DNA from: an uncultured Caryophanales bacterium
GTDB taxonomy: Bacteria > Bacillota_I > Bacilli_A > RFN20 > CAG-288
Assembly (NCBI GenBank): GCA_949287425.1
Contig: CASEGJ010000004.1
Coordinates: 389,727-453,726 of the forward strand
Direction of reading: 5' to 3'
DNA: 64,000 bases
The translations under genes and the position numbers were made by a program. This document shows, one piece after another, positions 50,308 through 54,774 of the stretch; the first letter of the stretch is position 1, and every line of letters begins with the position of its first letter. A model generated the notes under the pieces. The model did no database searches. It saw only the letters and a list, made by a program, of their open reading frames with translations, and had not been told where the DNA came from.

Positions 50308-50691
50308 ATGAACGAAAAAATTTTTGAAAGTTATAGTTTTAAAGAAAAAGAGGAGAAATTGATAGAAGTGTCGAAAGAATACTTTAAAAATGTGCAAAAG
50401 TTAATTAAAAATAACGACATTAGTTTGAAATCAATTTCGACTAATCCAAGAGAATTTCCCGTTATTGATTTATCAAATATATCATCAAAATTTGTTTCAA
50501 AAGAAGTAAAGTTTGTTTTTTGTGTAAACTTTGCAATTGCTAGTTTGACTAGACAAGAATCCACAATATTAAATAATGATTTCTTTTTCCCAAAAGATAA
50601 AAAATGGTGGATGGGAATTTATTCACAATCTAGTTATTATCGTTTTAAAGCTAGAGCAGTAAATAAATTCTTAGAGGTTTTAGATATATGA
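50308..50691 (+). CDS. Sigma-region-4-like protein, first gene of a small operon
   Basis: 127 residues. The C-terminal third reads like a sigma-70 region 4 or phage ArpU-type DNA-binding unit: ASLTRQESTILNNDFFF then KDKKWWMGIYSQSSYYRFKA (recognition helix pattern) then RAVNKFLEVL. A Mollicutes family known as MG284/MPN403 shows the same WW...S-S-YYR pattern (from memory). Probably a regulator, perhaps of this operon. AAAGGAGAG precedes the ATG. Its TGA stop (ATATGA) overlaps the next gene's ATG. Confidence 0.7.
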   Translation: MNEKIFESYSFKEKEEKLIEVSKEYFKNVQKLIKNNDISLKSISTNPREFPVIDLSNISSKFVSKEVKFVFCVNFAIASLTRQESTILNNDFFFPKDKKWWMGIYSQSSYYRFKARAVNKFLEVLDI

Positions 50692-51488
50692 TTAAAAAAC
50701 CATTATTAATTGGTTTAGCGTTATTAAATTTATTTAATATAACTAATAAAGACGATTTGGAAATTATATTAAATAATGCTAGGTTAAATGATGATGGTTA
50801 TATATTAAATTTAACAATTAAATCAAGCGATAAACTCGATTTAAATATACAATTTAACAAAGTTACCATTTATTCAAATAGCATTGATAAATTAGCCAAT
50901 ATTGATGTTTTAATTCCTAATCAATTTGGCGAATTAAATTATACTGGTTATTCTAATTTGGAATTTTTTTATAAGACTATTGAGGAAGAAAGCTATCATA
51001 AAATTACTAGCAACATTTCAATACTTGGGTTAAAAGATTTGGATTTTACCATAGAAAATGGTAGTGTTTCCATTGATTTTGTATTAAATAACAAAATTAG
51101 TTATTTAAAAAAAGAATATGAATTTATCAATATGGTGCCTTTAATTCCAATTGATACTAATATTGAATCATCTAAGATAACTAGTTTAGTTAAGTTTGAA
51201 ACAAGTGATATTTCATATCTTGATTTTTATTTATATTTAAATGAGAAGAAATATATGTTAAAAAAGCAAATTAGTAAAGATGATAAAGGAAATATATATA
51301 AAATTGATCTTTTACTTGTTAATCCTATATCAAAATTAAAAAAGGATGAAAATGACGCATATATTATTGGAATGTATTCATACAAATTTGAGTATTCATT
51401 TCGATATAACATTGAAATTAAACCAGTAGAAGTATTTGATTCAGAATATTCTAATTATTTTTATACTTGGAGTATACAAGATGTTTAA
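50688..51488 (+). CDS. Secreted protein of unknown function (operon gene 2)
   Basis: 266 residues. The N-terminus (MIKKPLLIGLALLNLFNI) looks like a short signal peptide without a lipobox Cys, then NTKDD. The rest is polar, rich in Asn, Ile, Leu, Asp and Lys and probably beta-rich, no Cys. Starts within the previous gene's stop (ATGA). Unrecognised. The next gene overlaps its 3' end by 8 bases. Confidence 0.7.
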   Translation: MIKKPLLIGLALLNLFNITNKDDLEIILNNARLNDDGYILNLTIKSSDKLDLNIQFNKVTIYSNSIDKLANIDVLIPNQFGELNYTGYSNLEFFYKTIEEESYHKITSNISILGLKDLDFTIENGSVSIDFVLNNKISYLKKEYEFINMVPLIPIDTNIESSKITSLVKFETSDISYLDFYLYLNEKKYMLKKQISKDDKGNIYKIDLLLVNPISKLKKDENDAYIIGMYSYKFEYSFRYNIEIKPVEVFDSEYSNYFYTWSIQDV

Positions 51489-51846
51489 GCTAGTTAGTTT
51501 AATAGTGATGCTACTATCTTTTGTAAGTGCCAAAAATTTAGAATATAGTAAATTCCAGCAGGTAAAATATCTTGTTTATACTGAGTTTCAATATTTAGTT
51601 AGACAACAGACATATTATTTAACAAGTTTTGAAACACCGATGATTAATTATACGAAATTAGCTGATGATTTTATGAAGTTTATCAGCGATTATAACATAT
51701 CAATTATAAAAGTTAATTATATAAATAACGGAGGGTATATTTATCCAATTTACGTAAATAAACTGGAATATATTCTTTCATATCAAATTTGTTTTATTAA
51801 TGAAGATTTCAAGATTAATGTCGAAATAAATAGAAAGGAAAAATAA
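51481..51846 (+). CDS. Small secreted protein (operon gene 3)
   Basis: 121 residues from ATG 51481, which lies 8 bases before the end of gene 2. N-terminal hydrophobic segment MFKLVSLIVMLLSFVSA (cleavage-like AKN follows), then a Tyr-rich body (KYLVYTEFQYLVRQQTYYLT, NNGGYIYPIYVNKLEY). Length and hydrophobic start recall pilin-like or TadE-like proteins. Unknown. Its stop overlaps gene 4 (TAATG). Confidence 0.65.
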   Translation: MFKLVSLIVMLLSFVSAKNLEYSKFQQVKYLVYTEFQYLVRQQTYYLTSFETPMINYTKLADDFMKFISDYNISIIKVNYINNGGYIYPIYVNKLEYILSYQICFINEDFKINVEINRKEK

Positions 51847-52490
51847 TGAAAAATAAATTTATATTACCATTAGGTATCTATGTTGTAGTTTCAAGTTTAT
51901 CAGCATTATTAGTTTTGACAAATTATATTATTGGATTGGCAGTTTTTGTAATAGAATTAATTTTAGCTATTTTAATATATAAATGTTTTACAAATATTGA
52001 TAAAAAGATTAAACATGAACAGGATTCTTCAATATTTCGTTTGAAGCTATTAGAAAGCTATTCAATCAATCATTCTCTTGAATATAGTTTAGATAGTCTC
52101 CAAGCTTATATGAAAGATAGCAGTTTGGATTTTGAATTTAAAGATATTTTATTAGATCACAGTTTATTAAATAGATTAGCAAGTAATTTTAATTCACAAG
52201 CAGTTGAGAAATTGTTTAATGAAAATAAATTAGGCAATATCGAACAATGTATAAAATTAGAAAGAGAATATTTAGATAAATTAGATAGGAATAATTATAT
52301 TTCAAAAATAATTACAAATTTATATCAATTATCCATATTGTTAGGTATTGTTCTTTCAATTCGAATTATTTTTGGCGATGAATTGTTAAATTACAATTCG
52401 TTAGTGTTTATAAGTGTCTTTTTATTGGTTTTGATTTTACCGATGATTTTAATATGCGTTAGTTCAATTAGAAAGGAGAAAGAATTATGA
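51846..52490 (+). CDS. Membrane protein with TadB-like topology (operon gene 4)
   Basis: 214 residues. Two N-terminal helices (about 5-50), a polar helical region (about 55-150, HSLEYSLDSLQAYMKDSSLD then LLDHSLLNRLAS), then two C-terminal helices (about 155-205, LSILLGIVLSIRIIF, LVFISVFLLVLILPMILICV). This is the plan of T2SSF-type platform proteins such as TadB/TadC of Tad pili. Similarity is by topology only; sequence evidence is weak. The ATG overlaps the previous stop (TAATG). Confidence 0.65.
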   Translation: MKNKFILPLGIYVVVSSLSALLVLTNYIIGLAVFVIELILAILIYKCFTNIDKKIKHEQDSSIFRLKLLESYSINHSLEYSLDSLQAYMKDSSLDFEFKDILLDHSLLNRLASNFNSQAVEKLFNENKLGNIEQCIKLEREYLDKLDRNNYISKIITNLYQLSILLGIVLSIRIIFGDELLNYNSLVFISVFLLVLILPMILICVSSIRKEKEL

Positions 52491-53158
52491 AATTTGATTT
52501 TAAAACGATAAAAGAAAAATTCTTTCATAAAAGTAGCGATGAAAATGAGTTACCAAAGGAAGTGAAAAAGGCTTCAAACAATAAATTGAATTATATATGT
52601 ATAGGCGTACTAATAGTGGGTATAATTTTAACTTTTGCTAGTTATTTTCTATATAAAGATATGTATATTTCGGTAATTGTCATAATGATATTTATCTTTA
52701 TCTCAAGCTTCATATATTATTTATCAACTTTAAAAATCAACAAATTAAATAATGATCCAGAATTAAAAATCAAAAAGCAATTTGTATGTGAGATTTTGTC
52801 CAACTATTTAATGACAAATCAATATCTCGATTCACTTAAATATGCATATGAACATATGGATACATCATCATTTAAAGACAATTTATCAAAAATTGATTTT
52901 CAGGATGTAAATTCGATTAAAACATTTTCTTTAAAAAGTGAAAATGATGAATATTTTGCTTTTGATAAACAACTGGAAGAAGTAATTTTACTCCCATTAA
53001 GTTTAAAAGGAACTAAGCAATTAGAATGTTTTATTAAACAGGCTAAGATGTTTTTAGATATTAAGCTAGAAAAAAATGCATCTGAAGCGATTGTTAATGT
53101 TAATTTAATTATCTTTGCCTGTTTTTATATAACGTTTATTTTAATGATGGTATTATGA
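52487..53158 (+). CDS. Membrane protein with TadC-like topology (operon gene 5)
   Basis: 223 residues. A charged N-terminus (1-35) precedes two helices (about 38-60 and 65-83), then a polar helical domain (about 90-195, CEILSNYLMTNQYLDSLKYA, EVILLPLSLKGTKQLECFI) and one C-terminal helix (about 203-223). It looks like a diverged partner of gene 4, as TadB and TadC usually form a pair. Starts inside gene 4 (ATGA) and its TGA overlaps the next ATG. Confidence 0.65.
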   Translation: MKFDFKTIKEKFFHKSSDENELPKEVKKASNNKLNYICIGVLIVGIILTFASYFLYKDMYISVIVIMIFIFISSFIYYLSTLKINKLNNDPELKIKKQFVCEILSNYLMTNQYLDSLKYAYEHMDTSSFKDNLSKIDFQDVNSIKTFSLKSENDEYFAFDKQLEEVILLPLSLKGTKQLECFIKQAKMFLDIKLEKNASEAIVNVNLIIFACFYITFILMMVL

Positions 53159-53454
53159 TAAAAAAGTTTGTATTAACTGGCATAATTAGTTTTGTTATAG
53201 CAAGTTTTTCATATCAATCTAAAATTTTAGATTTAAAAGAAAGATTAATATATATTTCTTCGCAAGTAGAAACTTATTACAAAGCTAATAAAAATATATA
53301 TGAAATACTCGATGACGATGAAATGTTTTATTATGAGTTAGATGTTGTGAATAATAGAGTTAACTATGTTGTTTCAAAACGAATTTCTAGTTTTTTCTAT
53401 ACCGATGTAGTTTATGAGATATCTAGCTATTTTTTCTATAAGGCCAATAATTAA
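53155..53454 (+). CDS. Small membrane-anchored protein (operon gene 6)
   Basis: 99 residues. One N-terminal helix MIKKFVLTGIISFVIASFSY, then a polar tail with YISSQVETYYKANKNIYEIL and many Tyr. It recalls pilin-like small proteins, but no processing site is evident. Coupled to gene 5 by ATGA. It is the last gene before tyrS, which follows after 60 bases. Confidence 0.65.
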   Translation: MIKKFVLTGIISFVIASFSYQSKILDLKERLIYISSQVETYYKANKNIYEILDDDEMFYYELDVVNNRVNYVVSKRISSFFYTDVVYEISSYFFYKANN

Positions 53455-53514: not shown

Positions 53515-54774
53515 ATGAAAAGCATTGTTCAAGATCTAGTAGATAGAGGTTTGTTAGATAATTTTTCAAATCGTGAAAAAGTCGAAAAGTTATTGGAGAC
53601 TAAACAAACTATTTATTGCGGTTTTGACCCATCAGCTAAGTCGTTGCAACTTGGAAATTTTGTTATGATTACAATTTTACAAAGATTGCAGAAAGCAGGT
53701 CATAGAATTATTGCTATTATCGGTGGTGGAACTGGTATGATTGGTGATCCTTCTGGCAAAAAATCTGAAAGACAATTTTTAGACGCTAAAAAGGTTGAAG
53801 AAAATGTTGAATCTATCAAAAAACAACTTTCAAAATTTTTAGATTTTTCCAATCCAAATAAAGGTATTTTATTAAATAATGGCGATTGGTGGGGAAAAAT
53901 TTCTGTTATTGATTATCTACGTGATTATGGTAAGTCATTTTCCGTTAATTACATGTTGAATAAAGAAATTGTCGCTTCAAGATTAGAAGTAGGCATTTCA
54001 TATACTGAATTTTCATACATGATTTTACAGGCTGGTGATTTTTATAGATTACACACTCAGTATGGCTGTAATTTACAAATTGGTGGTGGTGATCAATGGG
54101 GAAATTTAACTTCTTCATTAGAATTAATTAGGAAAAAAGAACCAAACGCTCCTGCTGAAGTCTTTTCTATTAAATTAATTACTGATTCTGAAGGAAAGAA
54201 ATTTGGTAAATCAGAAAAAGGTGCTTTATATTTAGATGCTTCAATGTGTTCTCCATATTATATTTATCAATATTTTATTAATGTTTCCGATCAAGATGTC
54301 GGTCGTTATATGAAAATATTTGATGATAGACCATTAGAAGAAATTCAAATTGATATCGATGAACACTTAAAAAATCCTGGTTTAAGATTAGGTCAAAAGA
54401 AACTTGCTTATTTAATAATTAGTAAAATTCATTCCTCAAAAGTTGCTGATGAAATGGTTAAAATGTCTAACGCATTATTTACTGGTGATTTTAATTCATT
54501 AAGAGAAGAACAAATCCTTGAAGTTGCAGATGGTTTAGCTAACTATGTTCCTGAAACTGATTCGATAGGCTTATTAGATGCTATGGTTAATTTAAAGTTA
54601 GCATCATCGAAAAGAGAAGCAAGAACATTTATTGAGTCTAACGCTGTAAAAGTTAATGGAAATTCTGTTAGTGATGTTAGCTATTATTTATCATCTAAAA
54701 ACGGTTTGTATGGGCATTTATTTTTAATAAAAAGAGGTAAAAAGAATTACGGTTTATTAAATTTCAAAAAATAA
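53515..54774 (+). CDS. tyrS: Tyrosyl-tRNA synthetase
   Basis: 419 residues from ATG 53515 (TTGGAGGTT upstream). Class Ic: CGFDPSAKSLQLGNFVMI (HIGH region, here QLGN at 45-48), IIGGGTGMIGDPSGK, QIGGGDQWGN (tyrosine binding), KFGKSEKG (KMSKS type) and a C-terminal S4-like domain (MVNLKLASSKREARTFIES, AVKVNGNSV). It charges tRNA-Tyr. The first His of HIGH is Gln here; see findings. Directly follows the small operon, but has its own ribosome site. A terminator follows. Confidence 0.96.
   Translation: MKSIVQDLVDRGLLDNFSNREKVEKLLETKQTIYCGFDPSAKSLQLGNFVMITILQRLQKAGHRIIAIIGGGTGMIGDPSGKKSERQFLDAKKVEENVESIKKQLSKFLDFSNPNKGILLNNGDWWGKISVIDYLRDYGKSFSVNYMLNKEIVASRLEVGISYTEFSYMILQAGDFYRLHTQYGCNLQIGGGDQWGNLTSSLELIRKKEPNAPAEVFSIKLITDSEGKKFGKSEKGALYLDASMCSPYYIYQYFINVSDQDVGRYMKIFDDRPLEEIQIDIDEHLKNPGLRLGQKKLAYLIISKIHSSKVADEMVKMSNALFTGDFNSLREEQILEVADGLANYVPETDSIGLLDAMVNLKLASSKREARTFIESNAVKVNGNSVSDVSYYLSSKNGLYGHLFLIKRGKKNYGLLNFKK

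Follow-up and report, generated by a model that had tools for sequence, protein, structure and literature searches.

A Tad-like platform operon without a motor gene in an uncultured relative of mycoplasmas: a candidate static surface scaffold

Motor, platform and pilin are the defining parts of a type IV filament machine. What purpose could an operon serve in which a platform-like gene pair and pilin-like small proteins are packed together with no motor gene beside them? The question is raised by positions 50308-53454 of the window, by which we mean the whole stretch of 64,000 nucleotides of DNA analysed here, whose host is an uncultured relative of mycoplasmas. An earlier note on this DNA had proposed a pilus-like surface system with an unlinked or missing motor, and we find that these two options can be told apart by comparison with related genomes.

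The six genes and the platform pair

The six open reading frames were confirmed, all on the forward strand. Gene 1 (50308..50691) follows a 140-base gap, is preceded by a good ribosome-binding site, AAAGGAG, and meets gene 2 (50688..51488) in an ATGA at 50688. Genes 2 and 3 (51481..51846) share 8 bases (51481-51488), gene 3 joins gene 4 (51846..52490) through a TAATG at 51846, and the junctions of gene 4 with gene 5 (52487..53158) and of gene 5 with gene 6 (53155..53454) are ATGA-type overlaps at 52487 and 53155. The description of six genes that overlap or touch at every junction is thereby upheld. The start of gene 3 is most likely the ATG at 51481; its mechanical reading frame begins further upstream, at a TTG. 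After gene 6 lies tyrS, which starts at 53515 and has its own ribosome-binding site, GGAGG. Three further species of the genus (L035, L036, L037) show the identical tight six-gene order ending at tyrS, and genes 2-6 are about 15-29% identical between them and the window. As order, packing and the tyrS end recur in three other species, the layout is not a product of chance.

Searches of the six proteins against Pfam and NCBIfam gave a credible match for gene 1 only, to MPN403_MG284_C (NF045770; 8.7e-19, 67.2 bits against a curated cut-off of 37.3), which places it in the MG284/MPN403 family of small proteins. Its C-terminal part is HTH-like (WWxxxYSxSxYYRxK) and is matched weakly by ArpU (0.026), which fits the earlier view of gene 1 as sigma-region-4-like, and gene 1 probably controls transcription of the operon. 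Gene 2 encodes 266 aa with a signal-like N-terminus. Genes 3 (121 aa) and 6 (99 aa) each have a single N-terminal hydrophobic segment, a helix followed by a soluble domain (a small one in gene 6), which is a minor-pilin-like layout. Gene 4 has four hydrophobic segments, near positions 6, 27, 159 and 187 of the protein, and gene 5 has them near 37, 61 and 205, so that the hydrophobic segments are as first described. Matches of gene 5 or 4 to DUF2207, MgtE and antiporters were taken as membrane-helix noise.

Genes 4 and 5 had been likened to TadB and TadC from their topology, and profile comparison supports this likeness, directly for gene 5 and via gene 5 for gene 4. By jackhmmer, both fall into the same families as their counterparts g4 and g5 in motor-bearing operons of relatives; hhalign scored the window's gene 4 family against motor-bearing g4 at 96.8% (E 2.7e-10) and its gene 5 family against motor-bearing g5 at 95.7%, and the gene 4 and gene 5 families detect each other (97%). 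Using as reference the true PilC proteins from separate type IV pilus loci of relatives, the window's gene 5 family matched PilC at 74.7% (E 2.6e-5) and motor-bearing g5 at 91.7% (E 7.6e-7), while unrelated control pairs mostly gave E 0.08-0.8, with one at 0.007; an HMM of the operon's g5 matched PilC at 4e-9 and 6e-12. The Pfam model PF00482 was matched by 7 of 31 members of the g5 family, the best at 1.1e-4, those shown in full lying below the cut-off; the window's proteins stayed below the curated cut-off too, and PF00482 had no match anywhere in the window's genome. It is because of the profile-profile evidence that we assign the platform proteins to T2SSF: judged from their sequences, gene 5 is a member of the T2SSF superfamily, and gene 4 would be tied to it through gene 5 only. 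AlphaFold2 predicts an all-helical fold for gene 4 (pLDDT 78, pTM 0.68), and a Foldseek search with this model returned no T2SSF match. Interferon and designed proteins, which came up in PDB profile searches with genes 4 and 5, were taken as chance matches.

The remaining genes are linked to the operon of relatives to different degrees. For gene 6, hhalign gives a chain from the window's family to a second motorless family, f3 (78%), and from f3 to the full operon (97%). The model of a motor-bearing homologue of gene 6 comprises a helix (2-48), a short helix and a three-stranded sheet (pLDDT 90), a predicted fold with the general layout of a pilin, in keeping with the pilin-like character first given to gene 6; Foldseek matched this model to no solved pilin, and gene 6 has no family match either. 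Comparison of gene 2 with g2 of other families gave 0.6-13% by hhalign, by which homology is not established, and gene 3 against g3 gave a weak 12%. For the window's family, position is thus the only link of genes 2 and 3 to the full operon: gene 2 is the counterpart, in position and size, of a g2 of ~340 aa, and gene 3 the positional counterpart of g3.

A motor-bearing operon in relatives

We read 58 neighbourhoods of gene 1 homologues from the same order, the window included. Twenty-seven of them carry a gene for a CpaF/VirB11-type ATPase between genes 3 and 4, and the full operon runs MG284-like gene, g2, g3, ATPase, g4, g5, g6 and, usually, a last gene, p7. The ATPase is a soluble protein of ~350 aa; the copy in L072 matches T2SSE at 1.5e-22, and the family profile finds GspE2 (6e-34) and CpaF (1e-29) in the PDB as well as VirB11 and FlaI structures. 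The p7 protein (for example L072:3894-4088 and its homologues), which ends most full operons, has ~60 aa, begins MSEIKGQLLGIxLVxxIFG and looks like a small pilin. It matched none of the Pfam pilins; its start, KG|QLLG, we take to resemble archaeal prepilin cleavage sites. Two tandem matches to the p7 gene were seen in one motor-bearing relative, at G043:C3:114069-114418.

The A24 prepilin peptidase (PF01478) is absent from the window's genome and from 93 of 98 relatives, including most of those with the ATPase, and no TadZ/CpaE ATPase was recognised adjoining the operons in the 58 neighbourhoods. The comparison thus brings to light a compact Tad-like operon that is widespread in an order of uncultured Bacilli and seems to lack a prepilin peptidase; the named tyrS neighbours that have the operon are likewise uncultured Bacilli, e.g., Bacillales bacterium UBA7642. 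The suggestion of an undescribed mollicute-related apparatus is fair for this full operon, as a search of the open-access literature found no description of MG284 or of such an operon. Mycoplasma-like genomes keep only a three-gene MG284 cluster with the same layout.

Loss of the motor and the fate of the remaining parts

The ATPase gene of motor-bearing relatives sits at the gene 3/4 point, where the window has the TAATG (51843..51849, forward strand) and no remnant. Neither Pfam nor the operon's own ATPase profile found a T2SSE ATPase in the window's operon or genome; one weak T2SSE match, at C4:319813, is an ABC transporter. The absence of an adjacent CpaF-type ATPase or prepilin peptidase, noted at the outset, therefore holds genome-wide in these profile searches. 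Among the searched genomes of the window's family no T2SSE ATPase was found except in G002, a member of the window's genus in which a distinct type IV pilus locus encodes PilB, PilC and a prepilin peptidase (L151, G002:C3:88500-104500). A weak match of the ATPase profile in G010 covers only the Walker-A region around the ATP-binding loop. By HMM, 19 neighbourhoods, the window included, have the platform without the ATPase. Both the window's family and f3 are without the ATPase in the operon or elsewhere in the genome, and without p7, whose profile finds nothing in the window's genome at E up to 1. No secretin adjoins the window's operon; secretins are confined to diderms and not expected in Bacilli.

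Gene 4 itself bears on where the motor went. A motif GGx[IFVL] is present in 29 of 30 motor-bearing gene 4 proteins and, outside membrane segments, in 0 of 19 motorless ones, the window's among them, in which this stretch has diverged or been deleted; a pattern search found four GG strings in motorless gene 4, which lie, as we read them, in membrane helices. We read the motif as similar in kind to GExSGxL, known from T2SSF proteins; that it has been lost speaks against a motor working in trans. By these comparisons the motor has been lost, not unlinked or moved, so that the first proposal stands as to a missing motor, which the full operon in relatives makes plain, and fails as to an unlinked one. 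In a single-gene tree of TypA both motorless families form clades, compatible with one or two losses of the motor.

Signs of constraint and signs of decay occur side by side among the motorless operons. In f3, two genera gave dN/dS values of 0.11-0.33 and 0.12-0.24 for genes 2-6, the L049/L060 pair being counted without its rows -1 and 5. These values indicate purifying selection on the f3 proteins; the measurement covers f3 only, the window's genus being too divergent. Selection on motorless parts can thus be demonstrated in one family. In the same family g4 and g5 appear fused (L063, L069, L077, L049, L060) into a protein of 290-377 aa whose second half is without the N-terminal helices. One genus of the window's family is without genes 2 and 3 (L040, L041, L043), f4 has shrunken remnants of g4 and g5, and gene 1 alone is left in some f3 and f2 genomes and in G030. 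The smallest version consists of the MG284 gene, g4, g5 and g6 (L040, L041, L163).

We lean, by a little, toward the view that the window's operon encodes a static scaffold descended from a Tad-like operon that lost its motor and p7. The ancestor would have been a compact Tad-like type IV filament operon of the kind widespread in this order of uncultured Bacilli. The window's family would then have lost the ATPase and p7, while the platform and the membrane-anchored pilin-like proteins stayed. We infer that the products of genes 4 and 5 would provide a passive scaffold in the membrane for the assembly of the single-helix proteins 3 and 6, which in turn may display the secreted protein 2 on the cell's outside. 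The result would be a static, membrane-anchored minor-pilin complex, a stub resembling a tip complex of minor pilins that stays primed and does not go on to extension, and it could be used for attachment or sensing. Selection on the parts in motorless f3 suggests such a stationary surface structure and not a working pilus. For Caulobacter, a model joins CpaG/H and the minor pilins CpaJ/K/L in one complex at the base, prior to extension (PMC13170226), and this assembly of platform and minor pilins is a point in favour of the proposed scaffold. More tentatively, and with confidence that falls somewhat short of even, we propose the general case in which a filament platform of the type IV kind would have done away for good with its ATPase and major pilin and would be kept by selection, in two or more families of uncultured Bacilli, as a surface scaffold that needs no ATP. 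A lineage in which the motor vanishes while platform and minor pilins are kept would offer a natural test of what a platform does alone.

The main rival, which we regard as rather unlikely, is slow decay, i.e., that the operon is a relic being lost as the ATPase and p7 already were. The graded losses, from genes 2 and 3 missing in one genus through the f3 fusion and the f4 shrinkage to gene 1 left alone in some f3 and f2 genomes, are what ongoing decay would give, and the fast divergence of genes 2-6 within the window's genus points the same way. Relics would, however, hardly be expected to give the low dN/dS of the motorless f3 operons. Likewise, the frames are unbroken in all four species of the window's genus that have the operon, although identity is about 20%, and the tight coupling at the junctions has been retained.

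Two other explanations appear improbable to us. The operon could belong to a working pilus or secretion system whose ATPase is encoded elsewhere or is very divergent; G002, of the same genus, does have a separate type IV pilus including PilB and the peptidase, and the window's genome is 94% complete, so that an ATPase gene could fall in a gap. An assembly gap is nevertheless unlikely, because the ATPase is absent alike in about 20 genomes. Across the family neither Pfam nor the ATPase profile built from the operon finds one, and the GG motif, p7 and the prepilin peptidase are missing as well; with p7 and the peptidase absent, a working pilus is not supported. Reuse of the platform pair outside filaments, e.g., as a small membrane complex in lipid or envelope stress, we rate just as low. 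It would suit the smallest version of the operon, with its four genes, but the pilin-like gene 6 stays in nearly all operons with a full platform, and no other enzyme joins the operon.

Known filament systems and the MG284 family

With the Tad or type IVc pilus the window shares two adjoining single-domain platform genes and small minor-pilin-like proteins, and its relatives also have a CpaF/VirB11-class ATPase just upstream of the platform genes. The window's operon differs in that it is led by an MG284-family gene, in that g2 and g3 match no Tad family, and in that it has no motor, no major pilin (searched for with the p7 profile) and no prepilin peptidase, for which reason it is not a Tad pilus. 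The tad locus of Bulleidia extructa is likewise a Tad-type system in related Bacilli and in a reduced genome; in contrast to the window's operon it has 13 genes, with tadV, pilins and an ATPase, and is described as horizontally acquired, and the passages covered here mention no MG284-family gene (PMC12786226). Type IV pili, type II secretion and Com systems (PilB, PilC, GspF, ComGA/GB) have the T2SSF superfamily platform in common with the window, but in them a single PilC-type protein contains two T2SSF repeats, and an A24 peptidase is present. Systems of this kind are carried separately by G002, G030, G064 and G083.

Homologues of gene 1 occur in 63 of 98 relatives and the family is present across several families of Bacilli; in the neighbourhoods read outside the order, none of the homologues is followed by platform genes. 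In Mycoplasma-like genomes (L139:5823-8115, L142, L143, L144, L146) the MG284 gene is followed first by a protein of ~370 aa that is DUF5443 or resembles MHO_1580, then by a one-helix protein classed as DUF5452 or MHO_1590; some of these clusters continue with acpP. The cluster MG284-MG285-MG286 of Mycoplasma resembles genes 1-3 in order, in its one-helix third protein and in its overlapping junctions; unlike the window it has no platform or motor genes, and profile comparison of MG285 and MG286 with genes 2 and 3 found no homology, so that the likeness is one of layout only. This unexplained cluster may deserve study as a possible remote trace of the operon.

Small proteins at L155:5127-5483, L158:1226-1576 and L162:1946-2320 stand at the head of operons in which the MG284 HMM has no match; they resemble strongly diverged homologues of gene 1. 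In another family of Bacilli (f25; L117, L113, L119), an MG284-family gene stands directly before a ptsI-like (PEP-phosphotransferase-like) gene, which indicates that the MG284 family is not tied to pilus genes.
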